From positions 744,001-808,000 of the forward strand of contig NZ_CP034753.1 of assembly GCF_004006235.1 (NCBI RefSeq): DNA of 64,000 bases. The letters are read 5' to 3'. The translations under genes and the position numbers were made by a program. The notes beneath the pieces were generated by a model. That model saw nothing but the letters and a program-made list of their open reading frames with translations, ran no database searches and had not been told where the DNA came from. The stretch is from Agromyces sp. LHK192. Lineage in GTDB: Bacteria; Actinomycetota; Actinomycetes; Actinomycetales; Microbacteriaceae. This document shows positions 7,136 through 26,531 of this stretch, piece by piece (the first letter of the stretch is position 1; each line of letters starts with the position of its first letter).

Positions 7136-7210
7136 TGAAGAAGCGAAATGCAACACCAGCAACACCGGGGGATCGGCTCCTCCAGGAGCCAAAACGACGA
7201 GGGGAATCAC

Positions 7211-7444
7211 ATGACGGTCACGGTCTACACGAAGCCTTCCTGCGTGCAGTGCAACGCCACCTATCGCGCCCTCGACAGCAAGGGCATCGAGTACGAGGTG
7301 CTCGACCTGTCGCTCGACGAGAACGCGCTCGCGCACGTCAAGGAACTCGGGTACCAGCAGGCGCCGGTGGTCATCACCGACGAAGACCACTGGTCCGGCT
7401 TCCGGCCCGACAAGATCGCCGAGCTGGCCGACCGCCTCGCCTGA
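7211..7444 (+). CDS. nrdH: Glutaredoxin-like protein NrdH, electron donor for class Ib RNR
   Basis: A 77-residue thioredoxin-fold protein, the normal size for NrdH. The redox motif CVQC is at residues 11-14 in TVYTKPSCVQC, and WSGFRPDKI near the C terminus is the NrdH signature that distinguishes it from glutaredoxins. It reduces the C-terminal cysteine pair of NrdE after each catalytic cycle and is itself reduced by thioredoxin reductase. The ATG at 7211 is preceded by GAGGGG; the frame is open upstream, but those codons have no homology. It heads the nrdHIEF operon. Confidence 0.97.
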   Translation: MTVTVYTKPSCVQCNATYRALDSKGIEYEVLDLSLDENALAHVKELGYQQAPVVITDEDHWSGFRPDKIAELADRLA

Positions 7445-7450
7445 GCGCCA

Positions 7451-7498
7451 GGTCTCGATACGGCTGGTCTCGATACGGCGCTTCGCGCCGACTCGACC
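7451..7498. repeat. Palindromic intergenic repeat between nrdH and nrdI
   Basis: GGTCTCGATACGGC occurs twice (7451-7464 and 7466-7479). The second copy runs into an imperfect inverted repeat ending CGACTCGACC at 7498, whose centre folds as GGCGC-TTC-GCGCC. Sequences of this GGTCTCGATACG...CGACTCGACC type are recognisable as a dispersed intergenic repeat in Microbacteriaceae. Here it lies inside an operon, so the transcript carries the hairpin. Confidence 0.65.
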
Positions 7499-7902
7499 AC
7501 TCGGAGGACGAGAGCCATGACGAACCTGGTCTACTTCTCGAGCATCTCGGGCAACACCGCACGATTCATGGAGAAGCTCGGCCGCCCTGCCGCCCGGATT
7601 CCGCTCCACGCGCGCGAGGAACCGCTGCATGCCGACGAGCCCTACGTGCTCGTCCTCCCCACCTACGGCGGGGGTGACGGCAAGGGCGCCGTCCCCAAGC
7701 AGGTCATCCGGTTCCTGAACGACCCCGAGAACCGCCAGCTCATCCGCGGCGTGATCAGCGCCGGCAACACGAATTTCGGCTCCGCCTACTGCCTCGCCGG
7801 CGACATCGTCGCCGCGAAGACGGGCGTGCCGCACCTGTATCGCTTCGAAGTATTCGGAACACCCGACGACGTCCGCGCCGTCGACGAGGGATTGGACGCA
7901 TT

Positions 7903-11131
<3,229 letters not shown>

Positions 11132-11434: not shown

Positions 11435-11830
11435 TCACACCTCGACCGCGAATCCGAGGTCGACGTCGCTGGCCGCATGGCCGCCGCCGACTCCCCAGTT
11501 GTCGCGGTCGATCTCGTGCACGATGGTCGACACGTGATCGCCGGGGATCCCGAGCGCACCCAGTCGTTCGACGATCGCCGCGTAGAGCCGGCGCTTCGCG
11601 TCCGATGATCGGCCGGCGAAGCAGTCGATGGTGACGATCGTCCGATACTCCGGGTGGCTGAGGTCCGGTGCGCAGGCGAAGCGGTGCGGCTCGTGGACGA
11701 TCAGTCGGATGTTGCGGTCTTCCGGCGGAATCCGGAAGGCGTCGACCAGGGCACTGTGGACCGCGTCGATGATGGCGATCTCCTGGTCGGCGTCATACGG
11801 GCGGCGGACTTCGATGAGGGCGGCAGGCAC
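11435..11830 (-). CDS. Tautomerase family protein
   Basis: A 131-residue protein of the tautomerase/MIF superfamily, in the longer actinobacterial form with two short beta-alpha-beta units. The GTG start at 11830 is chosen because it puts proline directly after the initiator (MPAALIEVRRPYD); an N-terminal Pro is the catalytic base of the family. The frame is open 12 codons further upstream, but that would bury the Pro. RRLYAAIVERLGALGI and HVSTIVHEIDRDNWG are conserved family blocks, the last with the NWG signature. The substrate is unknown. The next minus-strand gene upstream is an alpha/beta hydrolase, which may work with it. Confidence 0.88.
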   Translation of the reverse strand: MPAALIEVRRPYDADQEIAIIDAVHSALVDAFRIPPEDRNIRLIVHEPHRFACAPDLSHPEYRTIVTIDCFAGRSSDAKRRLYAAIVERLGALGIPGDHVSTIVHEIDRDNWGVGGGHAASDVDLGFAVEV

Positions 11831-11890
11831 AGCGTCATTATCCAGACCCGACGCCACGCCGGCCAAGGACCGCGGCGCCGATCCAGGCGA

Positions 11891-13105
11891 TCAGCGGCCG
11901 AGCTGGTCGTCCAGCCAGTCGTACATGCGCTCCGCAGTGAGGGCGCGGGCGAGCGGTTGGCAGTGTTCGTCGGCACCCTCGGCGGCGGTGAAGGCGATGG
12001 TCGTCGAGACATCCGGTGTCAGTTCTGCGAGCTTCTGCGCCTGACCGGGCCAGAACTGCTCGTTCTCGGGGGAGAGGATGAGCAGCTTCGTCGTGATCTG
12101 TCCTGCGACGTCGGTGGCGTTGTACGCGCGCACGGCGTTGATCGTCTCGCCGTAGCCGGTCGTGCCGTACGGGCGCGCGCGGAACGTCCAGGTGCGTGCG
12201 GTGTCGGGGGAGAACTTCATGCCCAGGGTCATCTCCTTGTCGAACGTCTCGAGGTCGCCCTCCGCAAGATGCTTGAGCAGGCCGGCGGGGATGTGGCCGG
12301 TCCAGGACGTCGACACGTCGACCAGACCCGGGTCGGTGATGGCCGCGGCGAAACGGTGCTCGAAGGCGATCCCGCGCACCACCCAGTAGCTGCCCTGGCT
12401 GATCCCGTAGACGCTGATCCGGTCCGCGTCGACGCGGTCCTGTGCGGCGACGAAGTCGTAGACCGGGGTGAGCACCTGCTCCCAGTCCGGCCGGAAGTGG
12501 GTGCCCTTCTCGAACAGCTGCGTCTGCTGGCCGGGCCCGTCGAACACCAGCACGTCGTACCCGCGCTCGAGGCCTGCTGAGACACATGACGCCCAGAGCG
12601 CGGCGAGGGAACCGTCACTGCCGTTGACCGCGACGACGACGGGGTTGCCCGCGGCCGCTCGCGTCGCGGAGCGGAACAGGTACCCGGGGAGCGGGTCGTC
12701 TTCATATGGGATCTGCACGGCGGTCACCTCGACGGAGGTGTGCTCGATGAACCCCTGCCAGGCGTCGTGTTGCCGTTGGAACGTCGTGGCGAGCCGCGCG
12801 GTATCGCCGAGGGAGCTGGCCGCGTTGACCGCGTTGGCGAAGTACGCGGAGGCGCGCAGGTATGCGGATGCCGCGCTGACCCGGTGTCCCGCCTCGGCCG
12901 ACGCATCGGCGGCAGTGGAGGTGCGTTCGGCGAGGGCGAGCCACGCGGCGAACCAGCCCTCGTGGTCGTTCTTCTTCACGTGCCCGGTGGCGGCGAGGAT
13001 CTCCCCGGGGTCGCCCGCGCCCGCGACGCTGGCGCCCAGGGCGCCACGGATGTCGTAGTCGAAGTCGGGGTTGCTCGAGAACGGTGCGATCGATGGCTTG
13101 GACAT
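11891..13105 (-). CDS. Alpha/beta hydrolase, FrsA/dihydropseudooxynicotine hydrolase-like
   Basis: A 404-residue protein with an N-terminal helical domain (about residues 1-135) before the hydrolase core, as in the DUF1100/FrsA and 2,6-dihydropseudooxynicotine hydrolase group. The core shows VLVFDGPGQQTQLFEKGTHF, conserved in the group, and the nucleophile elbow GISQGSYW (GxSxG). The acid and His lie near the C terminus (FTAAEGADEHCQPL). These enzymes cleave C-C bonds or act as esterases; the substrate is not predictable. The ATG at 13105 follows GGAGG. It is divergent from the transketolase operon across a 191-bp gap, so it may share regulation. Confidence 0.87.
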   Translation of the reverse strand: MSKPSIAPFSSNPDFDYDIRGALGASVAGAGDPGEILAATGHVKKNDHEGWFAAWLALAERTSTAADASAEAGHRVSAASAYLRASAYFANAVNAASSLGDTARLATTFQRQHDAWQGFIEHTSVEVTAVQIPYEDDPLPGYLFRSATRAAAGNPVVVAVNGSDGSLAALWASCVSAGLERGYDVLVFDGPGQQTQLFEKGTHFRPDWEQVLTPVYDFVAAQDRVDADRISVYGISQGSYWVVRGIAFEHRFAAAITDPGLVDVSTSWTGHIPAGLLKHLAEGDLETFDKEMTLGMKFSPDTARTWTFRARPYGTTGYGETINAVRAYNATDVAGQITTKLLILSPENEQFWPGQAQKLAELTPDVSTTIAFTAAEGADEHCQPLARALTAERMYDWLDDQLGR

Positions 13106-13208
13106 GGCGACGGCCTCCAGGCGAGTGGCGAGCGGATCCGCCACGAGGCTATTGGACCGGAGCGCTGGACGACAGGGGGCCCGCGCGGTCCTCGAAGCGG
13201 CCATCAGA

Positions 13209-13292
13209 AATTGCATAAAAATGCGTGCTTGACAGTTCATTCACTGGTCGACCAAACTGTGGTGACAGGCTTCAATCACTACTGAATAGGTA
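13209..13292. promoter_or_regulatory. AT-rich control region of the split-transketolase sugar operon
   Basis: The 191-bp divergent gap 13106-13296 holds a distinctly AT-rich stretch. It contains TTGACA (13229-13234), a good -35; the perfect palindrome TGGTCGACCA (13245-13254); and ATTGCAT near 13210, inverted as ATGCAAT at 13293. No canonical -10 at 17-18 bp was found. The palindrome sits where a repressor would block the promoter, and the SorC proteins encoded at 22177 and 24139 are the likely binders. Confidence 0.4.
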
Positions 13293-13296
13293 TGCA

Positions 13297-14172
13297 ATGC
13301 TAGACACCGACGTCTCCCAGGTCCAGGCCTGGCGCGACATCCGGGCGCGCATCGAGTCGAACCCCGACGCCGCACCGGATCTCCTCGCCGAGCAGGCCCG
13401 TGCCATCCGCCGCTCGGTCGTTCGCACCATCGACGCCGCACGTCAGGGCCACATCGGCGGCGACCTGTCGGTGAGCGACATCCTGACGGTGCTCTACTTC
13501 CACACCCTCCGCATCGACCCGTCGGACCCGACCGCCCTCGATCGCGACCGATTCATCATGAGCAAGGGCCACTGCGCCGCCGCCCTGTACTCGGCGCTCG
13601 CGCTGTCGGGATACTTCCCGGCCGCCGAGCTCAGCACCTTCATGGCGCCGCTGTCGGCGCTGAACGGCCACCCGAACCGCAACAAGGTGCCGGGCGTCGA
13701 GACGAACACCGGGCCGCTGGGGCACGGCCTGCCCGTCGCCGTCGGCCAGGCGCTCGCCGCGAAGCTCCGCGGTTCCGACGCGCGCATCTTCGCGGTCATG
13801 GGCGACGGCGAGATGCAGGAGGGTAGCAACTGGGAGGCGCTCATGTCGGCCGCCCACTACAAGCTCGACAACCTCACCGCCATCGTCGACCGCAATCGCC
13901 TCCAGCAGGGTGCTCGCACCGAGGAGACGAACGGGCTCGACCCGCTCGACGAGAAGCTCCTCGCCTTCGGATACGAACTGCGTATCATCGACGGCCACGA
14001 CTACGCCCAGCTCATCGAGGCGCTCGCGCCCTCGACCAGCGGCCGACCGGTCGCGATCATCGCGAACACCATCAAGGGCAAGGGCGTCTCGTTCATCGAG
14101 GACCGCGTCGAGTGGCACCACAAGGTGCCGACCAAGGAACAGGTCGAACTGGCGCTGGAGGAACTGGCATGA
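13297..14172 (+). CDS. Transketolase, N-terminal (thiamine diphosphate-binding) subunit
   Basis: A 291-residue half-transketolase. The entry motif GHIGGDLS is at residues 51-58. FIMSKGHCAAALYSAL and NTGPLGHGLPVAVGQA form the substrate and phosphate side. The thiamine diphosphate motif GDGEMQEGSNWEA runs from 169 and closes at DRNRLQ. The other half is encoded by the next gene, and the stop and start overlap as ATGA. Split transketolases like this are common in catabolic operons for unusual sugars, including the apulose-4-phosphate transketolase of the D-apiose pathway. The gene opens the operon that runs to the SorC gene. Confidence 0.93.
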   Translation: MLDTDVSQVQAWRDIRARIESNPDAAPDLLAEQARAIRRSVVRTIDAARQGHIGGDLSVSDILTVLYFHTLRIDPSDPTALDRDRFIMSKGHCAAALYSALALSGYFPAAELSTFMAPLSALNGHPNRNKVPGVETNTGPLGHGLPVAVGQALAAKLRGSDARIFAVMGDGEMQEGSNWEALMSAAHYKLDNLTAIVDRNRLQQGARTEETNGLDPLDEKLLAFGYELRIIDGHDYAQLIEALAPSTSGRPVAIIANTIKGKGVSFIEDRVEWHHKVPTKEQVELALEELA

Positions 14173-15134
14173 GCACCGTCATCACCACCGACGCCGCGGT
14201 GTACGACAATCGCGTCGCGTTCGCCGAGGAGCTCATCTCCCTCGCCGAGCAGGACGAGCGCATCGTCGCGGTCTGCAACGACTCCGTCGGTTCGAGCAAC
14301 CTCGTCGGGTTCCGCGAGCGGTTCCCCGACCGGCTGATCAACGTCGGCATCGCCGAGCAGAACCTCGTCGGCGTCGGCGCCGGACTCGCGAGCGCCGGCA
14401 TGATCCCGTTCGTCTGCGCCGCCAGCCCGTTCCTCACCGGGCGCTCGCTCGAACAGGTCAAGGCCGACGTGGCGTACAGCCAGCACCCGGTGATCCTGTG
14501 CGGCATGAGCCCGGGCATGGCCTACGGCGAACTCGGCCCGACGCACCACTCGATCGAGGACCTCAGCTGGCTGCGCGCCCTGCCGGGACTCGACATCATC
14601 GTCCCGGCCGACCGCGCGCAGACCCGCGCGGCCGTGCGTCAGGCCGCCGAGCACCCGCGCCCGACGTTCATCCGGGTGGGCCGCCACAAGGTGCCCGACG
14701 TGTCGGCCGAGGGCGCGACGCTCGAGCGCGGCCGATTCGACCGGCTCGCCGACGGGTCGGATGTCACGCTCATCGCCACCGGCACCCTCGTGTCGCGCGC
14801 CGTGGACGCCGCCCGTGCGCTCTCCTCCGACGGCGTGTCGGCCCGCGTGCTCAACGCCGCATACATCGCCCCGCTCGACGTCGACGCCGTCATCGCGGCG
14901 GCGCGCGAGACGCGCGCGATCGTCGTCGCCGAGGAGGCGAACCGGTCGGGCGGACTCGGAGCCGCGGTGGCATCCGTCGTCGGTCAGTTGCGCGCACCCG
15001 ACCGGGTGCCGCTGCGACTGCTCGGCATCGACGAGTTCGCGCCGACCGGCAGCAACGACTTCCTGCTCGAGTATTTCGGGCTCACCTCGCTCGACCTCGT
15101 CAGCGCCGCACGGGACGCCCTCGCCGATGCCTGA
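14169..15134 (+). CDS. Transketolase, C-terminal (pyrimidine-binding) subunit
   Basis: A 321-residue partner of the preceding subunit. The catalytic glutamate that activates the cofactor is Glu63 in NVGIAEQNLVGVGAGLASAG. Next come SQHPVILCGMSPGMAYGELGPTHHS, the family block ahead of the active-site His pair, and a C-terminal transketolase domain ending GSNDFLLEYFGL. It overlaps the upstream stop by four bases and its own stop overlaps the kinase start by eight, so the three are translationally coupled. Together the two subunits should transfer a two-carbon ketol from a phosphorylated ketose made by the downstream kinase. Confidence 0.93.
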   Translation: MSTVITTDAAVYDNRVAFAEELISLAEQDERIVAVCNDSVGSSNLVGFRERFPDRLINVGIAEQNLVGVGAGLASAGMIPFVCAASPFLTGRSLEQVKADVAYSQHPVILCGMSPGMAYGELGPTHHSIEDLSWLRALPGLDIIVPADRAQTRAAVRQAAEHPRPTFIRVGRHKVPDVSAEGATLERGRFDRLADGSDVTLIATGTLVSRAVDAARALSSDGVSARVLNAAYIAPLDVDAVIAAARETRAIVVAEEANRSGGLGAAVASVVGQLRAPDRVPLRLLGIDEFAPTGSNDFLLEYFGLTSLDLVSAARDALADA

Positions 15135-16641
15135 ACCGACCACCCGATCCGACACCGCGACGGTCGTGGCCGTCGACCAGGGCACGAGCTCGACCAAGGC
15201 CGTCGCGCTCGACGGCCGAGGTCGCGTCGTCGCGACCGCCGCGGTGTCGATCGGCCAGTCCCACCCTCGGCCCGGCTGGGTCGAGCAGGACGCGACCCGG
15301 ATCGCCGACAGCGTCGACACCGCGCTCGCTCGGATCACCCGTGCGCTCGGCGACAGTGCGGGTGCCGTCCAGGCGCTCGGACTCTCGACCCAGCGCGAGT
15401 CGGCCGTGATCTGGGACCGAACCACCGGGGAGCCGCTCGGGCCGATCCTCGGGTGGCAGGACCGGCGCACCCGCGAGCGGGCCCAGGAACTCATCGACGA
15501 GGGGCACGACGACGTCGTCCGCCGCATCACCGGGCTCCCGATCGACCCCATGTTCTCGGCGCTCAAGTTCGAGTGGCTGCTCGACGAGGTCGACCCCGAT
15601 CGTGCGCGAAGCGGTCGCGGCGAGATCGCGCTCGGCACGGTCGACTCGTGGCTGGTGTTCCGAGCCACCGGCGAGCACCGCATCGAGGCCGGCAACGCCA
15701 GCCGGACCCAGCTGATGTCGCTCGACGATGTCGACTGGAGCGACGAGCTCTGCGACCTCTTCCGGGTGCCGCGTCGCGCGCTGCCGCGGATCGCCCCCTC
15801 GAACGAGCCGACCGGGCCGATCCGTGCGGCAGGCCCCGGCGACCGCCGGTTCAACGCCGTGCTCGCCGACTCGCACGCCGCGCTCTTCGCGCACGGCATC
15901 GGCGACGGCGGCGTCGCCGCGGGAGACGTCAAGGTCACCTACGGCACCGGTTCCTCGATCATGGGCCTCTCGGATGCCGCCACGCCGGCCGGCCTCGTCC
16001 GCACCCTCGCCTGGCACGACGGCACCGTGCGGTACGCGTTCGAGGGCAACATCCTCTCGACCGGCGCGACCCTGGTCTGGCTGTCGAACCTCTTCGCGAT
16101 CTCGCCCGGCGAACTGACCGCGCTCGCCGAGGAGGCGAATCCCGACCACGGCCTCGAACTCGTCCCGGCGTTCGCCGGCCTCGCCGCACCGTGGTGGGAC
16201 GAGCACGCCCAGGCGATCATCAGCGGCCTGAGCCTCGGCACCGACCGGGCCTCGCTCGCTCGCGCCGCCGTCGACTCGATCGCCCTCCAGATCGAAGACG
16301 TGCTCTCCGCCGTCGACGCCGACCTTCCCGGAGGCATCCGACGGGTGTTCGTCGACGGCGGCCCGACGGCGAACGCCTGGCTGATGCAGCTCCAGGCCGA
16401 CTTCAGCCAGCGCCGACTCGTGCGCAGCGACGCCCCCGAACTGTCGGCGATCGGTGCCGGCATGCTCGCGGGGATGGGCGCCGGAACGTGGACGGCAGCC
16501 GACCTCGGCGACCTCGGCGGGACCCGCACGGGCTTCGAACCTCGAATGGCCGCCGATGCGGCGACCGCACGCCGGCGCAGCTGGCTCGACGCGATCGCCA
16601 GATCTCGCGGCATCCGCGCCTCGATACCGCAGCACACCTGA
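15127..16641 (+). CDS. FGGY family carbohydrate kinase (glycerol kinase-like)
   Basis: A 504-residue kinase with two ribonuclease-H-like domains. The N-terminal phosphate motif is VVAVDQGTSSTKAVAL; LSTQRESAVIWDRTTG and LGWQDRRTRERA form the substrate pocket and resemble glycerol kinase. VTYGTGSSIM is the second phosphate loop, and VFVDGGPTANAWLMQLQADF is the adenosine motif, again close to GlpK. Despite that likeness, its place between a split transketolase and an ABC sugar importer indicates a ketose kinase. Apulose kinase of the D-apiose route belongs to FGGY and fits the context. Which sugar it really takes needs assay; the family call is firm. Confidence 0.92.
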   Translation: MPEPTTRSDTATVVAVDQGTSSTKAVALDGRGRVVATAAVSIGQSHPRPGWVEQDATRIADSVDTALARITRALGDSAGAVQALGLSTQRESAVIWDRTTGEPLGPILGWQDRRTRERAQELIDEGHDDVVRRITGLPIDPMFSALKFEWLLDEVDPDRARSGRGEIALGTVDSWLVFRATGEHRIEAGNASRTQLMSLDDVDWSDELCDLFRVPRRALPRIAPSNEPTGPIRAAGPGDRRFNAVLADSHAALFAHGIGDGGVAAGDVKVTYGTGSSIMGLSDAATPAGLVRTLAWHDGTVRYAFEGNILSTGATLVWLSNLFAISPGELTALAEEANPDHGLELVPAFAGLAAPWWDEHAQAIISGLSLGTDRASLARAAVDSIALQIEDVLSAVDADLPGGIRRVFVDGGPTANAWLMQLQADFSQRRLVRSDAPELSAIGAGMLAGMGAGTWTAADLGDLGGTRTGFEPRMAADAATARRRSWLDAIARSRGIRASIPQHT

Positions 16642-16681
16642 CCTCAGACCCACCCCCGACCTCTGCAAGGGAGCAGCACAC

Positions 16682-17332
16682 ATGACCCGACCGTCGACGA
16701 AACGTTCGCCGATCCGCCCGTGGATGATCTGGACGGTCGGGCTCGTCGTCGTCGCCGTCGCAGCGGTGATGAGCACCAAGTTCATCAGCATCGAAGACGC
16801 CGAGGCCGCCGCGAGCGGGCAGACCTTCGACCCGGCGGCCTACGCCGACGAGCGGTTCGAATCCGAGATCGCGCCCCAGATCGAGGAGGAGTCGGTGGAC
16901 CTCGCCACGCTCCTCACCGACCTGCAGGGCGGCGCCGACGAGGCCGAATTCGGCAACACCCCCGGCGCGGGCAGCTCGTACAGCTTCCCGGTCGAGTTCA
17001 CCGGCGTCGCCGGGGCACCCAACGGGTCGATCCTCCCGGTCACCGTCGAGGGAGTGCCGAGCGACGTGGTCGTGCAGGTGCAGATCGGGCCGGCCATCAA
17101 CGGCACCGCCGTCCGCGACGTCACCGGCACGGTCTCGTTCAACGAATTCACCAACCAGCTCGAGTTCCAGGAGGTGGCGACCGAGCTCAACAATCTCGTC
17201 CGCGACGGGGTGCTCGCCGACGTCGACCCCGCATCGCTCGAAGGCAAGACGGTGCACGTCGTCGGGGCCTTCACCCGGGTGAACCCGGCGCTCGTCTCCG
17301 TCGTGCCGGTCGTGTTCGAGGTGCAGCCATGA
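16682..17332 (+). CDS. DUF2291 family membrane-anchored periplasmic protein of a sugar operon
   Basis: A 216-residue protein with a basic start, one N-terminal membrane helix (about residues 15-30, WMIWTVGLVVVAVAAVM) and an exported beta-rich body. DUF2291 proteins are found almost only beside ribose/rhamnose-type ABC importers and their kinases. Their role is unproven; accessory binding or assembly of the importer is a reasonable guess. The C-terminal part with GKTVHVVGAFTRVNPA is typical of the family. A GGGAG site precedes the ATG, and the stop overlaps the start of the ABC ATPase gene (ATGA). Confidence 0.85.
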   Translation: MTRPSTKRSPIRPWMIWTVGLVVVAVAAVMSTKFISIEDAEAAASGQTFDPAAYADERFESEIAPQIEEESVDLATLLTDLQGGADEAEFGNTPGAGSSYSFPVEFTGVAGAPNGSILPVTVEGVPSDVVVQVQIGPAINGTAVRDVTGTVSFNEFTNQLEFQEVATELNNLVRDGVLADVDPASLEGKTVHVVGAFTRVNPALVSVVPVVFEVQP

Positions 17333-18894
17333 GCATCCCCGTCGACGCCCCGCGAGATCGTGTCGTGATGCGCGCCCGCGACATCACCAAGGTCTACGGT
17401 GCGACCCGAGCCCTGAAGGGCGTCGACTTCGAGATCCGCAGCGGCACGGTCACCGTGCTGTTCGGCGAGAACGGCGCGGGCAAGTCGACGCTCATGAAGA
17501 TCCTCTCCGGCGTCGAGACGCCCACGAGCGGCACCCTCGAGCTCGACGGCGAGGAGGTCCGCCTCCAGGACACCGTCGACGCCGCCCGCCGCGGCATCGC
17601 GATCATCCACCAGGAGCTCAGCCTCTGCCCGAACCTGAACATCCGCGACAACATCTACATGGGCCGCGAGCTCGTGCGCGGCGGGTTCGTGGTCGACGAC
17701 CGCTCCGAGAACGCGAAGACCCGCGAGCTCATGGCCCGGCTCGAGGAGGAGCTCGACCCGCGCACGCCGGTCGGCGACCTGCGGCTCGGCCAGCAGCAGG
17801 TCGTCGAGATCGCCCGGGCGCTCGCCGGCGAGGCGCGCGTGCTCATCATGGACGAGCCGACGTCGGCACTGTCGGGCAGCGAGGTCGAGGTGCTGTTCTC
17901 GCTGATCCGCGAACTCACCGCCGACGGCGTCGCGATCGTGTACATCTCGCACCACCTCGAGGAGGCGCTCGAGATCGCCGACCACGCCGTGGTCTTCCGC
18001 GACGGCGAGCTCGTCGCGAAGGGCGAGCGTGCCGAGATCGATATCAACTGGGTGATCTCCAACATGGTCGGCCGGTCTGCCGACGACCTGGCGCCCGACC
18101 TGCTCGACGAGTTCGGCGAGGTCGCGCTGTCGCTGCGATCGGTGACCGTGGCCGACCCGACGAACCCCGCGCGCCTCGCCGTCGACGGCATCGACCTCGA
18201 CGTGCGCAAGGGCGAGATCGTCTGCCTGTACGGCCTGATGGGCGCCGGCCGCACCGAGCTGCTCGAGGCGCTCGCCGGCCGCACGCCGATCCAGCGCGGA
18301 ACGGTGTCGGTCGAGGGCCGCGAGCTGCGTCGGGAGTCCATCGGCGAGCGGATCCGCATGGGGCTCGCCCTCGTACCCGAGGACCGGCAGCGCGACGGCC
18401 TCGTGCAGACCATGTCGGTCGGCGAGAACAGCTCGCTGGCGAGCCTGCTCGACTACGTGCGCGGCTTCTGGATCCGCGGCCGGCGCGAGCGCGACGCGAT
18501 CGAGAAGGAGATCGTCGACGTGCGTGTGAAGACCGCGGGGCAGAAGGCATCCATCACGTCGCTCTCCGGCGGCAACCAGCAGAAGGTCGTGATCGGGAAG
18601 GTCCTCATGACCGAACCCGACGTGATCCTGCTCGACGAGCCGTCGCGGGGCATCGACGTCGGCGCCAAGGCCGAGATCTTCTCGCTCATGGCCCGCGAAG
18701 CCCGACGCGGACTGGCGGTGCTCTTCGCGACCTCGGAGGTCAGCGAGGCGCTCCAGGTCTCCAACCGCGTCGTCGTGATGTCGAAGGGCCGCATCGTGCG
18801 GGAGTTCGACCCGAAGCAGACCACCCGCGAAGACCTCATGATCGCCTCCGGCGAAGCGACCGAAGAAGAACTCACTGGGAGTGCACACGCATGA
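17329..18894 (+). CDS. Sugar ABC importer ATP-binding protein (tandem ATPase, RbsA/MglA type)
   Basis: A 521-residue protein with two ABC domains. Domain 1 has Walker A GENGAGKST at 46-54, a signature degenerated to LRLGQQQVVEIARAL, and Walker B VLIMDEPTSAL. Domain 2 has a degenerate Walker A (GLMGAGRTEL) but a good signature LSGGNQQK and VILLDEPSRGIDVGAKAEIF. This asymmetry is normal for carbohydrate-uptake-2 (CUT2) importers, where only one composite site is fully active. It powers uptake with the permease and binding protein encoded next, and overlaps both neighbours by four bases. Confidence 0.96.
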   Translation: MSIPVDAPRDRVVMRARDITKVYGATRALKGVDFEIRSGTVTVLFGENGAGKSTLMKILSGVETPTSGTLELDGEEVRLQDTVDAARRGIAIIHQELSLCPNLNIRDNIYMGRELVRGGFVVDDRSENAKTRELMARLEEELDPRTPVGDLRLGQQQVVEIARALAGEARVLIMDEPTSALSGSEVEVLFSLIRELTADGVAIVYISHHLEEALEIADHAVVFRDGELVAKGERAEIDINWVISNMVGRSADDLAPDLLDEFGEVALSLRSVTVADPTNPARLAVDGIDLDVRKGEIVCLYGLMGAGRTELLEALAGRTPIQRGTVSVEGRELRRESIGERIRMGLALVPEDRQRDGLVQTMSVGENSSLASLLDYVRGFWIRGRRERDAIEKEIVDVRVKTAGQKASITSLSGGNQQKVVIGKVLMTEPDVILLDEPSRGIDVGAKAEIFSLMAREARRGLAVLFATSEVSEALQVSNRVVVMSKGRIVREFDPKQTTREDLMIASGEATEEELTGSAHA

Positions 18895-20021
18895 ACGCCA
18901 TCACCACCGAACCGGCCGCACCGGCGGCGACGCAGCCGCCCAAGGAGCCGAAGCGCCGGTTCAAGGACGTCGACGTCTGGGGACTGCTGCTCGAGGGGCG
19001 CGCATTCATCGCGCTCATCGTGCTCGTCATCATCTTCGCGCTGCTGTCCGACTCGTTCCTCACCTGGAACAACCTCGTCACGATGACCAAGCACGTCGCC
19101 TACAACGCGATCCTCGCGCTCGGCATGCTGTTCGTGATCCTTAAGGGCGGCATCGACCTCTCGGTCGGCTCGATCGTGGGGCTGTCCGGCGTCGTCGCCG
19201 GTACCCTGCTGCAGGGTTGGCAGCTCGACCTCTTCGACATCGTCGTCTACCCGCAGGTGTGGGTCGTCGTGCTCGCAGCGCTCGCGGTCGGCACCCTCGT
19301 CGGCCTCATCAACGGCGTCCTCGTCACGAAGTTCAACGTCGCACCCTTCATCGCGACACTGGGCATGTTGTACGTCGCCAGAGGTGCGGCGCTGCTGATC
19401 TCGAACGGCACGACCTATCCGAGGCTCGCCGGCACCGAGGAGCTCGGCAACCAGGGGTTCCTGCAGCTCGGCGGCGGACGCATCCTCGGCATCCCGACGG
19501 CGATCTGGATCATGGTGGTCTTCGCGCTCGTCGCGGCCTTCGTGCTGCGCAAGACGCCCTTCGGCCGCTGGGTCTACGCGACCGGCGGCAACGAGCGGGC
19601 GGCCGAGCTGTCGGGCGTGCCCGTCAAGAAAGTGAAGATGCGGGTCTACATGATCAGCGGCTTCTGCGCCGCGATGGTCGGCCTGATCATCTCGTCCGAG
19701 CTCACGAGCGCGGCCCCACAGCTCGGCGAGACGTTCGAGCTCAACGCGATCGCCGCGGTCGTGATCGGCGGCGCGGCGCTCACCGGCGGCCGGGGCAACG
19801 TGCGCGGCGTGCTGATCGGTGCGTTCGTCATCGGCTTCCTCAGCGACGGCCTCGTGCTGCTCGGCGTCTCGACGTTCTGGCAGATCGCCATCAAGGGCGC
19901 GGTCATCATCCTCGCGGTGATGCTCGACCAGGCACAGCAGCGCATCAAGCGCTCGAAGAACGCGGCGCTGGCCGCCGCGAACAAACAGGCTTCGCGACAG
20001 GATGCCCCGGCGGGCACCTGA
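18891..20021 (+). CDS. Sugar ABC importer permease (RbsC type)
   Basis: A 376-residue integral membrane protein of the CUT2 permease family. After a proline/lysine-rich cytosolic start come about ten helices. The family blocks LFVILKGGIDLSVGSIVGLS, GLINGVLVTKFNVAPFIATL, YATGGNERAAELSGV (the loop contacting the ATPase) and AIAAVVIGGAALTGGRGNVR are all present. It presumably works as a homodimer with the tandem ATPase. The start overlaps the ATPase stop (ATGA). The binding protein gene follows after 72 bp. Confidence 0.95.
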   Translation: MNAITTEPAAPAATQPPKEPKRRFKDVDVWGLLLEGRAFIALIVLVIIFALLSDSFLTWNNLVTMTKHVAYNAILALGMLFVILKGGIDLSVGSIVGLSGVVAGTLLQGWQLDLFDIVVYPQVWVVVLAALAVGTLVGLINGVLVTKFNVAPFIATLGMLYVARGAALLISNGTTYPRLAGTEELGNQGFLQLGGGRILGIPTAIWIMVVFALVAAFVLRKTPFGRWVYATGGNERAAELSGVPVKKVKMRVYMISGFCAAMVGLIISSELTSAAPQLGETFELNAIAAVVIGGAALTGGRGNVRGVLIGAFVIGFLSDGLVLLGVSTFWQIAIKGAVIILAVMLDQAQQRIKRSKNAALAAANKQASRQDAPAGT

Positions 20022-21071
<1,050 letters not shown>

Positions 21072-21100
21072 TCCACCCTCCCGCCCGGCGCGGGAGATCG

Positions 21101-21129
21101 CGGTGGGCGGCCGGACCGGCCGCCCACCG
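21101..21129. terminator. Strong hairpin between the binding protein and isomerase genes
   Basis: CGGTGGGCGGCCGG (21101-21114) pairs perfectly with 21116-21129. Lying after a binding protein gene but inside an operon, it is more likely a partial terminator or mRNA-stabilising element that raises binding protein output over the downstream genes. Confidence 0.7.
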
Positions 21130-21161
21130 TCGCACGAACCATCCCCTCGAAAGGACATCCC

Positions 21162-22148
21162 ATGACCGACCGGCAGCAGCGCTACGGCGCCGGCATCTGG
21201 CACTTCGCGACCTACGTCGATCGCTACGCCACCGACGGCTACGGCGACCCGCTCACGATCCTCGACGGCATCGACCTCGCCGGTCAGGTGCGCGACCTGT
21301 CGGTCGTCGACCTGAATTGGCCGTTCTGGGGCGGCGACTTCACGAACGAGCAGGTGAAGGAGGCGCTCGACCGCAACGGCCTCGGCGTCATCGGCATCAC
21401 GCCCGAGATCTACACCCGCGTCTTCGCCAAGGGCTCGTTCACCAACCCGGACCCCGGTGTGCGCCGGCTCGCGCACGAGCTGATCACCGACGCGGCCGAC
21501 GTCGTGCGCTACTTCGGCGCGGACTACGTCAAGCTCTGGCCGGGCCAGGACGGCTGGGACTACCCGTTCCAGGTCGACCACGGCGCCCTGTGGAAGGCGT
21601 CGCTCGACGGCGTCGGCCAGCTCGCCGCGGAGAACCCCGACCTCAAGTTCGTCATCGAGTACAAGCCGCGCGAGCCGCGCGTGCACATGAGTTTCGACTC
21701 GGTGTCGCGGACGCTCCTCGGCATCGAGAAGATCGGCCTGCCGAACGTCGGGATCCTGCTGGACTTCGGCCATGCCCTCTTCGGCGGCGAGTCGCCGGCC
21801 GACTCGGCGCAGCTCGCGATCGACTACGGTCGCCTGTTCGGCATGGACGTCAACGACAACCTGCGCTCGTGGGACGACGACATGGTCGCCGGCACCGTGC
21901 ACCCGATCGAGCTGTTCGAGTTCTTCTACACGCTCGAGAAGAACGACTGGCACGGCGTGTGGCAGCTCGACCAGTTCCCGTTCCGCGAGGACAGCGTCGA
22001 GGCGGCGAACACCGCGATCGACTTCCTCAAGGCGATCGAGCGGGCCCTGGGCAAGCTCGACGTCGAGGGCGTGCGCGAGGCGCAGGCGAACCACGACGCG
22101 ATGGGCGCGATGAAGCTCGTGCAGAAGGCCCTCTTCAGCTCGTACTGA
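21162..22148 (+). CDS. TIM-barrel sugar isomerase/epimerase (AP endonuclease 2-like family)
   Basis: A 328-residue TIM-barrel protein of the xylose-isomerase-like superfamily. Candidate divalent-metal ligands in the expected strands are Glu166 ([11 protein letters not shown]), Asp201 and His204 ([11 protein letters not shown]), Asp229 or Asn231 ([14 protein letters not shown]) and Asp270 ([11 protein letters not shown]). It opens with [20 protein letters not shown], characteristic of isomerases in ABC-kinase-transketolase operons. In the D-apiose route an enzyme of this kind converts apiose to apulose, which matches the kinase and transketolase here. Function as a sugar isomerase is well supported; the sugar itself is inferred. 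Confidence 0.88.
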
Positions 22149-22176
22149 GCCGGATGCCCACGGATCGGATCGGAAC

Positions 22177-23196
22177 ATGGCGGTCGGCACGGGGCCGGCT
22201 CGGGGGAGCGGCCACGACCGCCGACTGCTGATCCTGAAGGTCGCCCGGCTCTACCACGAGGGGGGACTGCGACAGGCCGAGATCGCCTCGCGACTCGGCC
22301 TGTCGCAGTCGCAGGTCTCGCGCATGCTGACGGCAGCGACCGAGCAGGGCTTCGTCAGGACGATCGTCGTGCAGCCCCGGGGCGTGCACACCGACCTCGA
22401 GGAGGCGGTGCGTGCCAAGTTCGGGCTCGCCGATGTGATCGTCGCGGATGCCTCGGGCGATCAGCGTGCGGTCTCCGCCGCGATCGCCCGAGCTGGGGCC
22501 GCGTACCTCGAGACGACCATCGGCGCGCGTGAGCGCATCGGGATCTCGTCGTGGTCGTCGACCCTGCTGGCGGTGGTCGGGGAGATCACGCGGCCGTCGC
22601 CGAGGCCTGCGGCCACGGTCGTGCAGATCCTCGGCGGCATGGGCGTGCCGTCCGTGCAGGTCTATGCGACGCAGCTCACGGACCGGCTCGCCCGCCTCGT
22701 CGGCGCTCGGCCGGTGTTCCTCACCGCGCCGGGACTGACCGCGTCGCCACGCGTTCGGCGCGCGTTGCTGCACGACGACCAGGTCGCCGCGGCGGCTCGC
22801 GAGTGGGATCGGCTCGACACAGTGCTGCTCGGCGTGGGCTCGCTGACGCCGTCGGCCCTGATCCGCGCGTCTGGCAACGCGGTGCCCGCCGATGACCGTG
22901 CGGCGCTGCTCGGCGCCGGTGCGGTCGGCGATATCTCGCTGCGCTACTTCGACGAGGACGGCGCCGAGGTCGTCACCGGCCTGTCCGAGCGCGTGCTCGG
23001 CATCGGGGGCGACGTGCTGCGGGCCGTGCCGCGGCGGGTCGGCATCGCCGGCGGCGACGAGAAGCGGCTCGCGATCGCGGCGTCGCTCCGGGGCGGATGG
23101 ATCTCCGTGCTGGTCACCGACGCGGGCGTCGCGCGGTGGCTGGCGTCGACGGAGGTCAGTCCTCGAGGAGGGCCCGAGCCGTACGCTCGTCGGTGA
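22177..23196 (+). CDS. SorC/DeoR-family sugar-responsive regulator, operon-linked
   Basis: A 339-residue SorC-type regulator. The helix-turn-helix is at the N terminus (EGGLRQAEIASRLGLSQSQVSRML), and the rest is the phosphosugar-binding domain with GISSWSSTLLAVVGE, VVQILGGMGVPSVQV, VLLGVGSL and RVGIAGGDEKRLAIAASLRG. Proteins of this family sense phosphorylated sugar intermediates and control the operon they sit in. It begins 28 bp after the isomerase gene and probably closes the operon started at 13297. Its last 41 bp overlap the end of a second, convergent SorC gene. The last codons (SPRGGPEPYARR) are an artefact-like tail from that overlap. Confidence 0.93.
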   Translation: MAVGTGPARGSGHDRRLLILKVARLYHEGGLRQAEIASRLGLSQSQVSRMLTAATEQGFVRTIVVQPRGVHTDLEEAVRAKFGLADVIVADASGDQRAVSAAIARAGAAYLETTIGARERIGISSWSSTLLAVVGEITRPSPRPAATVVQILGGMGVPSVQVYATQLTDRLARLVGARPVFLTAPGLTASPRVRRALLHDDQVAAAAREWDRLDTVLLGVGSLTPSALIRASGNAVPADDRAALLGAGAVGDISLRYFDEDGAEVVTGLSERVLGIGGDVLRAVPRRVGIAGGDEKRLAIAASLRGGWISVLVTDAGVARWLASTEVSPRGGPEPYARR

Positions 23197-24139
23197 TGAG
23201 CGTGTTGATCCAGCCGCCGCGGCATGCGGCGCGGATCGCCTCGTGCTTGCGTGCGCCTCCCGCGATGCCGACCCGCCGCGGCACGGCCAGCAGCACGTCG
23301 CGCGGGATGCCGACGACGCGCTCGTCGAGTTCGCTGTCGATGGCGACGCCGTCGGCGTCGAAGAATCGCAGGCAGACGTCGCCGACCGCCGATCGCGCCC
23401 GAAGGTCGTCGAGGTCGGCGTCGGGCAGCGCGTTGCCGGAGTCGCGCAGCAGGGGCGACGGCTGCAGGCTGCCGATGCCCGCGAGCACGATCGTCAGCTG
23501 TTCCCACGAATCCTGGAGTCCGCGGATGTTCATGTCGGACATGAGCGCGTCACGCGCGGTCCTGGTGCTGACGACCCCGGGCGCCGGCAGGTAGTGCGGG
23601 GCGCCGCCCGTGACCCGGGCCAGCCGGTCGGCGAGGTGGGTGGCCTTGACCTGAGCGCTCGGGTTGCCGACGCCGCCGATGACCTGCACGATCTCGGTGG
23701 CCAGGCGGGTCGTGCGCGGCACCATCGAGTCGACGGTCGCGAGCAGCGTGGCCGACCACGAGGAGATGCCGACCCGGTCGGCTCCCGTGAGCGAGGTCTC
23801 GAGGTACCCGGCGCCCGCGCTCCCGAGGGCGTTGAGCAGGCTGAGCTCGTCGTCGGAGTCGACGGAGGCGACGATCACGTCGCTGAGTCCGTACCGGTCG
23901 CGCACGCCGTCTTCGAGTTCGGCGTAGACGCCGGGTGGGGCGATGACCACGGTGCGGACCACGCCGAGGGTCTGCGCCTCCTTGAGCAACCGCGACACCC
24001 GGGACTGCGACACGTGGAGTCGTTCGGCGATCTCGGGCTGGCGCATGCCCTGCTCGTGGTACATGCGGGCGACCTTCGCCAGCAGCGACATCCGCTCCAG
24101 GGGGATACGGCTCACGGGAGTGGGGTCGTCAGCGATCAC
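23156..24139 (-). CDS. SorC/DeoR-family regulator, second paralogue, convergent
   Basis: A 327-residue paralogue of the preceding regulator with the same layout: HTH in EQGMRQPEIAERLHVSQSRVSRLL and effector domain with GISSWSATLLATVDSM, IVQVIGGVGNPSAQV, IVLAGIGSLQPSPLL and RVGIAGGARKHEAIRAACRG. GTG at 24139 is preferred because AAAGGAG lies 10 bp before it; the frame is open 33 codons further upstream through the divergent promoter and is not credible there. It is divergent from the secreted DUF1593 protein, so it may control that gene, the sugar operon, or both. The likeness to its neighbour suggests an old duplication with division of labour. Confidence 0.92.
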   Translation of the reverse strand: MIADDPTPVSRIPLERMSLLAKVARMYHEQGMRQPEIAERLHVSQSRVSRLLKEAQTLGVVRTVVIAPPGVYAELEDGVRDRYGLSDVIVASVDSDDELSLLNALGSAGAGYLETSLTGADRVGISSWSATLLATVDSMVPRTTRLATEIVQVIGGVGNPSAQVKATHLADRLARVTGGAPHYLPAPGVVSTRTARDALMSDMNIRGLQDSWEQLTIVLAGIGSLQPSPLLRDSGNALPDADLDDLRARSAVGDVCLRFFDADGVAIDSELDERVVGIPRDVLLAVPRRVGIAGGARKHEAIRAACRGGWINTLITDERTARALLED

Positions 24140-24231
24140 GGTGGACGGCTCCTTTCGTCGGCACGGGACCCGGTGTGCCGACGGGTCTTCGTCATCCGGT
24201 GTCGTGAGCACAGTACACCCGCCGACGGCGG

Positions 24232-24291
24232 CGTGCATGTTTAGTCACCAATGCATGGATCTTGACGATCTCGCGAGCGGATGCCTAGCCT
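24232..24291 (+). promoter_or_regulatory. Promoter of the DUF1593 protein gene with flanking dyad
   Basis: TTGACG (24262-24267), an 18-bp spacer and TAGCCT (24286-24291) make a good actinobacterial promoter. Just upstream, TGCATG is repeated around TTTAGTCACCAA (about 24233-24256), a plausible operator for the divergent SorC regulator. The 241-bp gap 24140-24380 also carries the SorC ribosome binding site AAAGGAG. Confidence 0.55.
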
Positions 24292-24380: not shown

Positions 24381-26531
24381 GTGGCCCTCGAAAACACCCC
24401 GGAACGCCGTATGCGGCGTCGATGGATCCGCACCGGTCTGGTCGCCGTCGGCGTCGCGTGCCTGGCCGCGCCGCTCGTCGCCGCGCCCGCGCAGGCGGCG
24501 CCCGCGTCGGCCTTCGGTGCCGCGACCGTCGCCGACGATCAGGATCGCGTCGCGACGCCGCGCACGGTCATCACCACCGACCCCGAACTCGACGACCTCA
24601 ACTCGATGCTGAGGATGCTGCTGTACAGCAACGACCTCGACATCGCCGGTCTCGTCTACTCGGCCAGCCAGCACCACTACGAGGGCGACCCGGAGGCAGG
24701 CATCGCACCGTTCCGCTGGCCCGACCCGAGCAGCGTCTTCCACATCGACGAGGCCGTCAATGCGTACGAGCAGGTGTACCCGAACCTCGTCGCGCACGAC
24801 TCGACCTATCCGACGCCCGACCACCTCCGCTCGCTGATCAAGTGGGGCAACGTGAAGAACGTCGGCGAGATGGCCGAGGACACCGAGGGCTCGGACTTCA
24901 TCAAGCAGATCCTCCTGGACGACGAGCCCGGGCAGGTGTTCCTGCAGGCCTGGGGCGGTCCGAACACCATCGCCCGGGCGCTCAAGTCCATCCAGGATGA
25001 ATACCAGGGCACCCCTGAGTGGGACGCGATCCACGACAAGATCACGCAGAAGGTCGTGCTGACGAGCTTCGGCCAGCAGGACACGACGTTCCGCGACTAC
25101 ATCCGACCGAACTGGCCCGACCTCGAACACCGCGAGGTCGCGACGAGCATCTGGGGGTACGGCGCGCGCGGCTCGGCGCTGCCGGAGTGGCAGAAGTACC
25201 TCTCGCCCGAGTGGACTCGGGCGAACGTGTCGGATGTCGGCCCGATCGGCGAGTCGTACCGAGTGTGGGGCGACGGCAAGCAGATGGCCGCCGGCTTCGA
25301 CGACGAGGACTACTTCGGCCTCAGCGGCTACACGGCCGATGAGCTCCGCGCCATGGGCTACGGCGTGTGGACTCCGCCGCAGCCCAAGGACGCGTGGATC
25401 TCGGAGGGCGACTCCTCGAACTTCGCGTTGCTCATCGACAACGGACTCCGCAACTGGGAGGACCCGACGTACGGCGGATGGGGTGGACGTCAGGCCCTGA
25501 ACCCGGCGGACCCCTACCAGTGGCGCAACCGCGGGGTCACGGACCTCTACAACGGTGCCCCGCGCAACGACTACTCGGCGGGCCGTTGGTTCGAGGACTT
25601 CCAGCTCGACTTCGCCGCACGCATGCAGTGGTCGGTCACGCCGACCTTCGACGGCGCGAACCACGCGCCCGAGGTCTCGCTCGCTGATGGGGTCGACCTC
25701 GAGGCGCAGGTGGGCGCCCCGGTGACGCTGAACGCCGAAGCCGTCGACCCCGACGGCGACGCCGTCTCCTACCGGTGGTACCAGTACGCCGAAGCCGACA
25801 CGTACGCCGGAGCGATCGCGATCGACGGCGCCGACTCGGCGCAGGCGACGTTCACCGTGCCGGCCGACGCACCGGTCGGCTCGACGATCCACGTCATCCT
25901 CGAGGTGCAGGACGACGGAACCCCTGCGCTGAAGCACTACCAGCGCGCCGTGGTGACCGTGACGGCGGATAAGACGCGTCCTGAGGTGTCGTTGGCAGCG
26001 CCGACGTCGGCTGGTCCGTCGCAGGCGATCGGGCTGAAGGTGGATGCCTCGGATGGTGGTGGTCTGGCGCGGATCGTGGCGAACATCTATCAGGGGTCGA
26101 CGTTGGTCAAGAGCACGCAGACCGCGCAGAACGGTGCCCTGTCGGGTTCGCACGAGGCGACGGTGAACCTGCCGTCGGGTGAGTACACGATCAAGTACAA
26201 CGCGCAGGACCTGGCCGGGAACATCTCGAAGACCTCGACGTTCGCGGTCACGGTGGACGCGACGGCGCCGACGGTGACGGTGAAGGACGGTTCGTCGTTC
26301 ACGGTGGGTTCGGCTTCCGCGGGGTACGACCTGGTCAGCTTCAAGCTGTACGACGCGAAGAAGATCGACAAGGTCACGATCAACGGGGTCGTGAAGGACC
26401 TGTCCGACAATGCGTGGTCGGATGTGAACTTCGTCAAGCCGGGCGTGTTCGGTGCGGTCAAGGGTGCGAACACGCTGGTCGTATTCGATGTGGCCGGGAA
26501 CCAGACGACGGTGCCGTTCACGCTGAAGTAG
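24381..26531 (+). CDS. Secreted nucleoside hydrolase-like protein (DUF1593, Sde182 type) with C-terminal Ig-like modules
   Basis: A 716-residue exported protein. A long signal peptide ends near residue 39 (APAQA-A). A nucleoside-hydrolase-like domain begins with VITTDPELDDLNSMLRMLL (the Asp cluster equivalent to the calcium site of nucleoside hydrolases), continues with FLQAWGGPNTIARAL, and extends to about residue 435. A cellulose-binding Sde182-type beta domain follows (about 440-530, DPDGDAVSYRWYQY). The last ~185 residues are Ig-like modules (DLAGNISKTSTFAVTV, VFDVAGNQTTVPFTL). DUF1593 proteins occur in plant-polysaccharide degraders. The role is inferred as extracellular carbohydrate or glycoside processing. 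GTG start with AAGGAG. From about 25970 onward codon use shifts to GGT, TTG and GAT, unlike the rest. Confidence 0.88.
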   Translation: MALENTPERRMRRRWIRTGLVAVGVACLAAPLVAAPAQAAPASAFGAATVADDQDRVATPRTVITTDPELDDLNSMLRMLLYSNDLDIAGLVYSASQHHYEGDPEAGIAPFRWPDPSSVFHIDEAVNAYEQVYPNLVAHDSTYPTPDHLRSLIKWGNVKNVGEMAEDTEGSDFIKQILLDDEPGQVFLQAWGGPNTIARALKSIQDEYQGTPEWDAIHDKITQKVVLTSFGQQDTTFRDYIRPNWPDLEHREVATSIWGYGARGSALPEWQKYLSPEWTRANVSDVGPIGESYRVWGDGKQMAAGFDDEDYFGLSGYTADELRAMGYGVWTPPQPKDAWISEGDSSNFALLIDNGLRNWEDPTYGGWGGRQALNPADPYQWRNRGVTDLYNGAPRNDYSAGRWFEDFQLDFAARMQWSVTPTFDGANHAPEVSLADGVDLEAQVGAPVTLNAEAVDPDGDAVSYRWYQYAEADTYAGAIAIDGADSAQATFTVPADAPVGSTIHVILEVQDDGTPALKHYQRAVVTVTADKTRPEVSLAAPTSAGPSQAIGLKVDASDGGGLARIVANIYQGSTLVKSTQTAQNGALSGSHEATVNLPSGEYTIKYNAQDLAGNISKTSTFAVTVDATAPTVTVKDGSSFTVGSASAGYDLVSFKLYDAKKIDKVTINGVVKDLSDNAWSDVNFVKPGVFGAVKGANTLVVFDVAGNQTTVPFTLK

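Follow-up and report, generated by a model that had tools for sequence, protein, structure and literature searches.

Which sugar is handled by a compact ten-gene locus in the genome of Agromyces sp. LHK192, and from where might that sugar be obtained? The locus occupies positions 13297-24238 of the window, by which we mean the whole 64,000-nucleotide stretch analyzed here (contig NZ_CP034753.1, positions 744,001 to 808,000; the host genome is a single 4.09-Mb contig). An earlier note on this DNA had read the genes, in order, as transketolase N, transketolase C, FGGY kinase, DUF2291, a CUT2 ATP-binding cassette (ABC) importer, a TIM-barrel isomerase and SorC, with two SorC regulators and an apiose-type two-subunit transketolase, and had proposed apiose or a related branched or small sugar as the substrate. 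The gene order is confirmed by coordinates and by Pfam, which backs the family assignment of all ten genes with one or more domain matches each, including PF04198 in both SorC proteins and the expected domains in the adjacent N and C transketolase halves (Table 1). The proposal of apiose is likewise supported, by possession of the eight genes of the Pectobacterium apiose cluster, by an isomerase 63% identical to the Pectobacterium enzyme, and by the accessible part of PMC13001218. Judged from sequence comparison, the operon very probably serves D-apiose catabolism by the isomerase-kinase-transketolase route, and it is an actinobacterial member of the already known D-apiose cluster. The catabolic route is therefore not new; what is new here is that apiose clusters have recurring partners with a nucleoside-hydrolase fold.

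In order to assess gene linkage, the isomerase was used in an alignment scan of 84,980 species genomes that returned 371 relatives, and the best 80 of the 371 were kept as loci. Both transketolase halves, the kinase and the isomerase occur together in 55 of these 80 loci, which were collected by isomerase alone, indicating that the grouping is not due to chance; the importer is also present in 40 of the 55. All four enzymes are found in 46 of the 48 loci from outside the Enterobacterales (46 of the 48 are Actinomycetota and one is Gilliamella) versus 9 of the 32 Enterobacterales loci. Those nine (seven Pectobacterium, one Brenneria and one metagenome-assembled genome) carry the window's eight genes, namely two transketolase halves, FGGY kinase, DUF2291, CUT2 ATPase, permease and binding protein, and isomerase, in a different order. 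The alignment and genome-neighborhood comparison with apiose enzymes that had been suggested for this locus thus recovers the same gene set in Pectobacterium. At the level of sequence, the window isomerase is 63% identical over 321 residues to that of the P. carotovorum cluster. The accessible part of the 2026 paper PMC13001218 treats the P. carotovorum WPP14 cluster as the D-apiose cluster already described, with apsI as the isomerase, and names aplK, aptA and aptB in E. coli SE15. Growth on apiose is demonstrated there for P. carotovorum and, among Escherichia with a related cluster, for E. fergusonii and three E. coli strains. The eight genes recur in Rhizobium sp. SL42, with DeoR replacing SorC and an isomerase 80% identical to that of the window. 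On a Streptomyces plasmid, genes for isomerase, both transketolase halves, kinase and SorC adjoin pectinesterase, GH28, beta-L-arabinofuranosidase and GH95 genes, which fits pectin as the source of apiose.

The chemistry of the isomerase-kinase-transketolase route is known from the published apiose pathway, reportedly characterized by Carter et al. In Agromyces, free apiose would enter through the CUT2 importer (binding protein, permease and ATPase, with DUF2291 as an outer accessory), the isomerase would convert it to apulose, the FGGY kinase would phosphorylate apulose to apulose 4-phosphate, and the two-subunit transketolase would transfer a two-carbon unit to glyceraldehyde 3-phosphate, leaving dihydroxyacetone phosphate. 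A sugar phosphate would probably be the signal sensed by the SorC regulators. The earlier note had seen in the kinase a resemblance to glycerol kinase that left room for another substrate. The kinase scores 411 bits against the GlpK model TIGR01311, which lies below the curated cut-off of 590, and a separate, true GlpK is encoded elsewhere in the host genome (743 bits). The P. carotovorum genome repeats the pair, with a GlpK at 763 bits and a second kinase at 470 bits, and in a tree of 40 kinases one branch with 100/100 support splits 29 cluster kinases from 11 GlpKs. Given the sub-threshold score, the separate GlpK and the tree, we rejected GlpK identity; the likeness looks like shared ancestry with a different function, and the doubt over the substrate is not upheld.

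The functional unit probably extends beyond the point at which it had previously been ended, up to a PF07632 gene at 24381-26531. This gene is the only copy in the host genome and starts 2.2 kb past the isomerase; its product, which has a signal-like N terminus, would probably supply apiose from plant glycosides or pectin. A phmmer search with the window protein gave matches in 17 of the 80 loci, and in 11 Micromonosporaceae loci the gene follows the isomerase. We then considered whole genomes for 50 of the 80 loci (L038-L086 and L012), taking E under 1e-40 as a strong match. Forty strong PF07632 matches were found in 25 genomes, and 26 of the 40 lie within ~11 kb of an isomerase (17 genomes), compared with 0.12 expected under even placement. 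Since related genomes are not independent, a formal P value for this linkage means little. Copies near apiose clusters form no single group in a 31-row PF07632 tree, in which every non-apiose row is from Microbacteriaceae, so that label statistics are biased. As a control, the same 50 genomes hold 442 GH3 genes, with 1.68 expected near the isomerase; phmmer with two GH3 probe proteins, which may miss some members, gave weak matches in 3 of the loci.

Conceivably, the PF07632 gene has nothing to do with apiose and is there by chance, being either a partner of the second SorC regulator or part of general plant-glycan scavenging; we regard this as a serious possibility, if a doubtful one. Its support comes largely from the host's own family. 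In 299 Microbacteriaceae genomes, the isomerase is present in 9 and a strong PF07632 match in 13 (weak matches in G101 and G268, both inside variant nucleoside-hydrolase genes, were excluded), and the two coincide only in the window's genome. A strong PF07632 gene is therefore absent from 8 of the 9 isomerase-positive genomes and the isomerase from 12 of the 13 with strong PF07632, an overlap that is not significant (1 shared, 0.39 expected, Fisher p 0.33) and that counts against an apiose role for PF07632. Six of the loci without isomerase were viewed, and their neighbors comprise GH78, GH3, PF00144, sulfatase and ABC importer genes together with unrelated ones. In addition, a GH140 gene accompanies PF07632 in six genomes. 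Nevertheless, chance placement has to contend with the position of the sole host copy and with the excess of copies near isomerases in the 50 genomes, set beside the low GH3 control.

A second family of nucleoside-hydrolase type also recurs beside apiose operons. Where PF07632 is missing, the fetched flanks often contain an IU_nuc_hydro variant (38.7-54.3 bits for the four scanned), with the fingerprint D-N-D-[YF]-x-G-D-P-D in 19 of 22 matching frames; the other three lack the motif or are incomplete. Across the 48 loci L039-L086, PF07632 is found in 16, the variant in 12 and both in none. The fetched flanks of the 32 full-length actinobacterial loci among them hold PF07632 in 14 cases, the variant in 9 and neither in 9, one of the last (L042) having a PF07632 gene ~14 kb away. 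The 50 genomes contain 26 strong variant matches, and the variant is present in 12 isomerase loci versus 0.17 expected. Within the 299 Microbacteriaceae, it occurs in 5 of the 9 isomerase genomes, always on the contig of the isomerase and no more than 9 kb away, compared with 32 of 299 overall (p 0.001), and also in 11 of the 13 strong-PF07632 genomes (p 2e-10). Nine of the 11 weak PF07632 matches in the 50-genome scan fall on variant genes, indicating that the sequences of the two families are related. The variant adjoins the apiose operon on the opposite strand at L118:13795-14763, L120:13734-14651, L123:13704-14645 and L117:4590-5561, and SBP_bac_5-type importer genes lie near it in the scanned L117 and L118.

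Signal-like N termini and importer genes hint at where these proteins may act. A hydrophobic, signal-like stretch is present in each of the 20 PF07632 proteins examined beside apiose clusters, the window's among them (mean hydropathy over 12 residues of at least 2.1, a hydropathy rule and not a signal-peptide predictor), and all 12 from isomerase-less Microbacteriaceae genomes are without one (hydropathy at most 1.1). A monosaccharide importer is present in 17 of 18 PF07632 loci, including the window, versus 7 of 17 variant loci (p 0.0009, uncorrected for kinship). Such a pattern, which is no proof, would be expected of a secreted form that releases sugar for uptake and a cytosolic form that acts on glycosides after their import. 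The Microbacteriaceae PF07632 proteins of L104-L114 lack a signal-like N terminus, and some of the six scanned loci have GH78, GH3, sulfatase or PF00144 neighbors; these proteins may act on imported plant glycosides. No match to the GH140 apiosidase (PF13204) was found in the host genome. Of the 50 genomes searched that have the isomerase, 38 have no GH140 gene and 12 have one. In five of the 12 (G306, G308, G310, G312 and G314), the GH140 gene has a distant variant copy (34-38% identical) at a distance of 4.3-4.4 kb, probably a single inherited arrangement.

The window PF07632 protein (Sde182/DUF1593) scores above the 26.8-bit cut-off and has a nucleoside-hydrolase fold. Its fingerprint is TxDxxxDD (T65, D67, D71, D72), and Gly343 precedes Asp344, the presumed last calcium Asp. 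The accessible part of PMC8910321 describes an active N-ribohydrolase as combining a DxDxxxDD fingerprint with a His, Trp or Cys residue preceding the last calcium Asp, a combination from which the window protein departs. A 43-row alignment shows little or no variation at three of the four Asp positions of the fingerprint and in an E-G-D motif, which is compatible with catalysis. Apiose and ribose are both furanoses bearing a cis-diol. We tentatively propose, with somewhat less than even confidence, that the secreted PF07632 proteins and the cytosolic IU_nuc_hydro variant make up a new class of calcium-dependent apiofuranosidases. On this view, calcium would hold the cis-2,3-diol of apiose just as, in nucleoside hydrolases, it holds the one of ribose, and the lack of a base-activating residue would reflect an O-linked instead of an N-linked leaving group. 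Secreted forms would accompany operons that import free sugar, and cytosolic forms would be commoner where the importer is lacking.

It is also imaginable, but in our judgment unlikely, that PF07632 is a non-catalytic carbohydrate-binding module, as proposed for Sde_0182 (2yhg), a nucleoside-hydrolase-like calcium-binding domain of S. degradans with three carbohydrate-binding domains in front of it in the protein. In the accessible part of PMC8910321, which makes no link to apiose, this domain is described as retaining calcium but having no activity on nucleosides, and a role as a furanose-interacting module is suggested; activity is tied to oligomers and the Sde_0182 protein is called monomeric. 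The assays reported there used nucleosides, however, and the Asp positions and E-G-D motif kept across the 43 rows fit catalysis, short of proving it.

Apiose is the sugar through which borate bridges cross-link rhamnogalacturonan II (RG-II), a pectin domain. Its catabolic route is known, but GH140, the known apiosidase family, is absent from the host genome and from 38 of the 50 genomes. If the neighboring genes do release apiose, glycosidase activity would be added to a fold known for nucleoside cleavage, a function would be assigned to PF07632, a large family so far without one (4,887 relatives with E of 1e-40 or lower), and breakdown of RG-II and apiosides would become predictable in actinobacteria. 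A literature search that covered few subscription journals returned no paper linking nucleoside hydrolase with apiose or apiosidase, none joining apiose, apulose and transketolase, and none on DUF1593 or DUF2291.

DUF2291, for which no role had been known, can now be tied to the importer. It is present in all 42 importer-bearing loci among the 80 and is found in polyol-like operons too, from which we conclude that it belongs to the importer. A structure model gives an OB fold resembling TM0957 of Thermotoga maritima (2f4i), which, going by locus numbers, adjoins the ribose-binding protein TM0958. DUF2291 would accordingly be placed as a predicted importer part. In the PDB, the binding protein is best matched by the R. 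etli protein entries 5ibq (E 4e-108) and 4ry0 (E 7e-108), the former of which reportedly holds apiose. The best NCBIfam matches of the ATPase are XylG-, AraG- and RbsA-type ATPases, every one under its cut-off. At L128 (G106), an importer and DUF2291 much like those of the window stand in a stretch without apiose enzymes, beside two GH78 rhamnosidase genes and a LacI regulator.

Several observations weigh against the assignment to apiose. In 23 of the 32 Enterobacterales loci (five of the 32 are shorter than 20.9 kb) the isomerase is without the full enzyme set inside the fetched flanks; 22 of these have none of the other three enzymes, and L038 has the transketolase halves and no kinase. Membership of the isomerase family alone is therefore no proof of apiose. 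The transketolase C half is only 36% identical to its Pectobacterium counterpart, the binding protein's best PDB matches are named 'Probable ribose ABC transporter', and the apiose role of the host proteins is a predicted one. A different small sugar or a polyol (erythritol, threitol, ribose or a pentitol) as the substrate of the same enzyme classes is nevertheless very improbable: polyol-like operons with DUF2291 importers do carry glycerol-3-phosphate-dehydrogenase-like genes (one also has triose-phosphate-isomerase and RpiB genes), DUF2291 importers also adjoin zinc dehydrogenases with an FGGY kinase, and the ribose label would suit it, but a split transketolase is absent from both annotated polyol-like loci (a one-chain enzyme lies ~9 kb away from one of them), their TIM-barrel proteins align weakly with the window isomerase (21-23% over 101 residues), and the four-enzyme set is that of the Pectobacterium apiose cluster. 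The erythritol or threitol alternative raised in the earlier note was for these reasons set aside in favor of D-apiose. Separately, an ApsI-like isomerase without nearby transketolase or kinase is seen at L002:11980-12972 and in most Enterobacterales loci, and in one Pantoea it is two genes from hxlB.

Nine of the ten genes are on the plus strand and the second SorC gene is on the minus strand. Overlaps of 4 or 8 bases occur in four gene pairs, and the remaining intergenic gaps are 28-90 bases, amounting to operon-like packing. The two SorC genes overlap at their 3' ends, that of the second being at 23156, and the true start of the latter may be nearer 24091 than the longest-frame 24238. A perfect TGGTCGACCA palindrome at 13245, upstream of tktN, was considered as an operator and dropped, as among the matches listed for 11 related loci none looks conserved there, a judgment made from those matches and not from a systematic comparison of upstream regions; palindromic words of this kind are over-represented here (12 found versus 3.1 expected). 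Scans for consensus promoters and terminators gave no match, and a repeat search near the regulator genes gave short inverted pairs only. Divergent from the operon, a tautomerase gene and an alpha/beta hydrolase gene lie on the minus strand at 11435-13240; by phmmer in 86 other loci, the hydrolase is found in none and the tautomerase has a weak match in one. Directly upstream, at 7148-11131, are ribonucleotide reductase genes (glutaredoxin-, NrdI-, NrdE- and NrdF-like, judged by eye).

Table 1. Genes of the predicted D-apiose operon and its PF07632 neighbor (window coordinates)
Feature	Position	Strand	Domains	Similarity and remarks
Transketolase N subunit (AptA-like)	13297..14172	+	PF00456	50% identity to Pectobacterium carotovorum, 51% to E. 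coli SE15 aptA
Transketolase C subunit (AptB-like)	14169..15134	+	PF02779, PF02780	64% identity to Streptomyces, 36% to E. coli SE15, 36% to P. carotovorum
FGGY kinase, predicted apulose kinase (AplK-like)	15127..16641	+	PF00370, PF02782	TIGR01311, 411 bits
DUF2291, membrane-anchored outer protein, predicted importer accessory	16682..17332	+	PF10054 (159.5 bits)	OB-fold domain
CUT2 importer ATPase	17329..18894	+	PF00005 in two stretches	
CUT2 importer permease	18891..20021	+	PF02653	57% to permease of R. etli oiaX-bearing locus
Importer sugar-binding protein	20094..21071	+	PF13407	61.5% to binding protein of R. etli oiaX-bearing locus
TIM-barrel isomerase, predicted D-apiose isomerase (ApsI-like)	21162..22148	+	PF01261	3ktc, E 1.4e-136
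SorC-family regulator 1	22177..23196	+	PF04198	37% to E. coli SE15 cluster regulator
SorC-family regulator 2	23156..24238 (longest frame)	-	PF04198	51% to regulator 1; gene caller gives 23156-24091
Secreted Sde182_NH-like protein, candidate apiosidase	24381..26531	+	PF07632, PF21027 (Sde182_NH-like, Sde0182_C)	Divergent from SorC 2

Compared with known systems, the operon is closest in content to the Pectobacterium D-apiose cluster (MetaCyc PWY-8089), in which apsI, kinase, aptA, aptB, CUT2 importer, DUF2291 and SorC correspond to the window's eight genes plus SorC. Identities to P. carotovorum DSM 30168 are 63% for the isomerase, 58% for the binding protein, 53% for the permease, 50% for the transketolase N half, 45% for the ATPase, 39% for the kinase and 36% for the transketolase C half, and 33% over 84 residues for DUF2291. 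The Pectobacterium cluster has another gene order, and the window has two SorC genes and an adjoining PF07632 gene, which phmmer found in none of the Pectobacterium loci; in the P. carotovorum genome PF07632 is present at another place. The apiose cluster of E. coli ST131/SE15 (ECSF_RS02670-02715) shares with the window the kinase, both transketolase halves, DUF2291, the CUT2 importer and SorC but, unlike the window, has two short-chain dehydrogenase/reductase (SDR) oxidoreductases and no isomerase. Finally, the oiaX locus on plasmid p42f of R. etli CFN 42, an apionate-type route by annotation, resembles the window in its binding protein (61.5%), permease (57%), ATPase (47%) and DUF2291 (34%), and has oxidoreductase and oiaX genes in place of the isomerase, FGGY kinase and split transketolase of the Agromyces operon.

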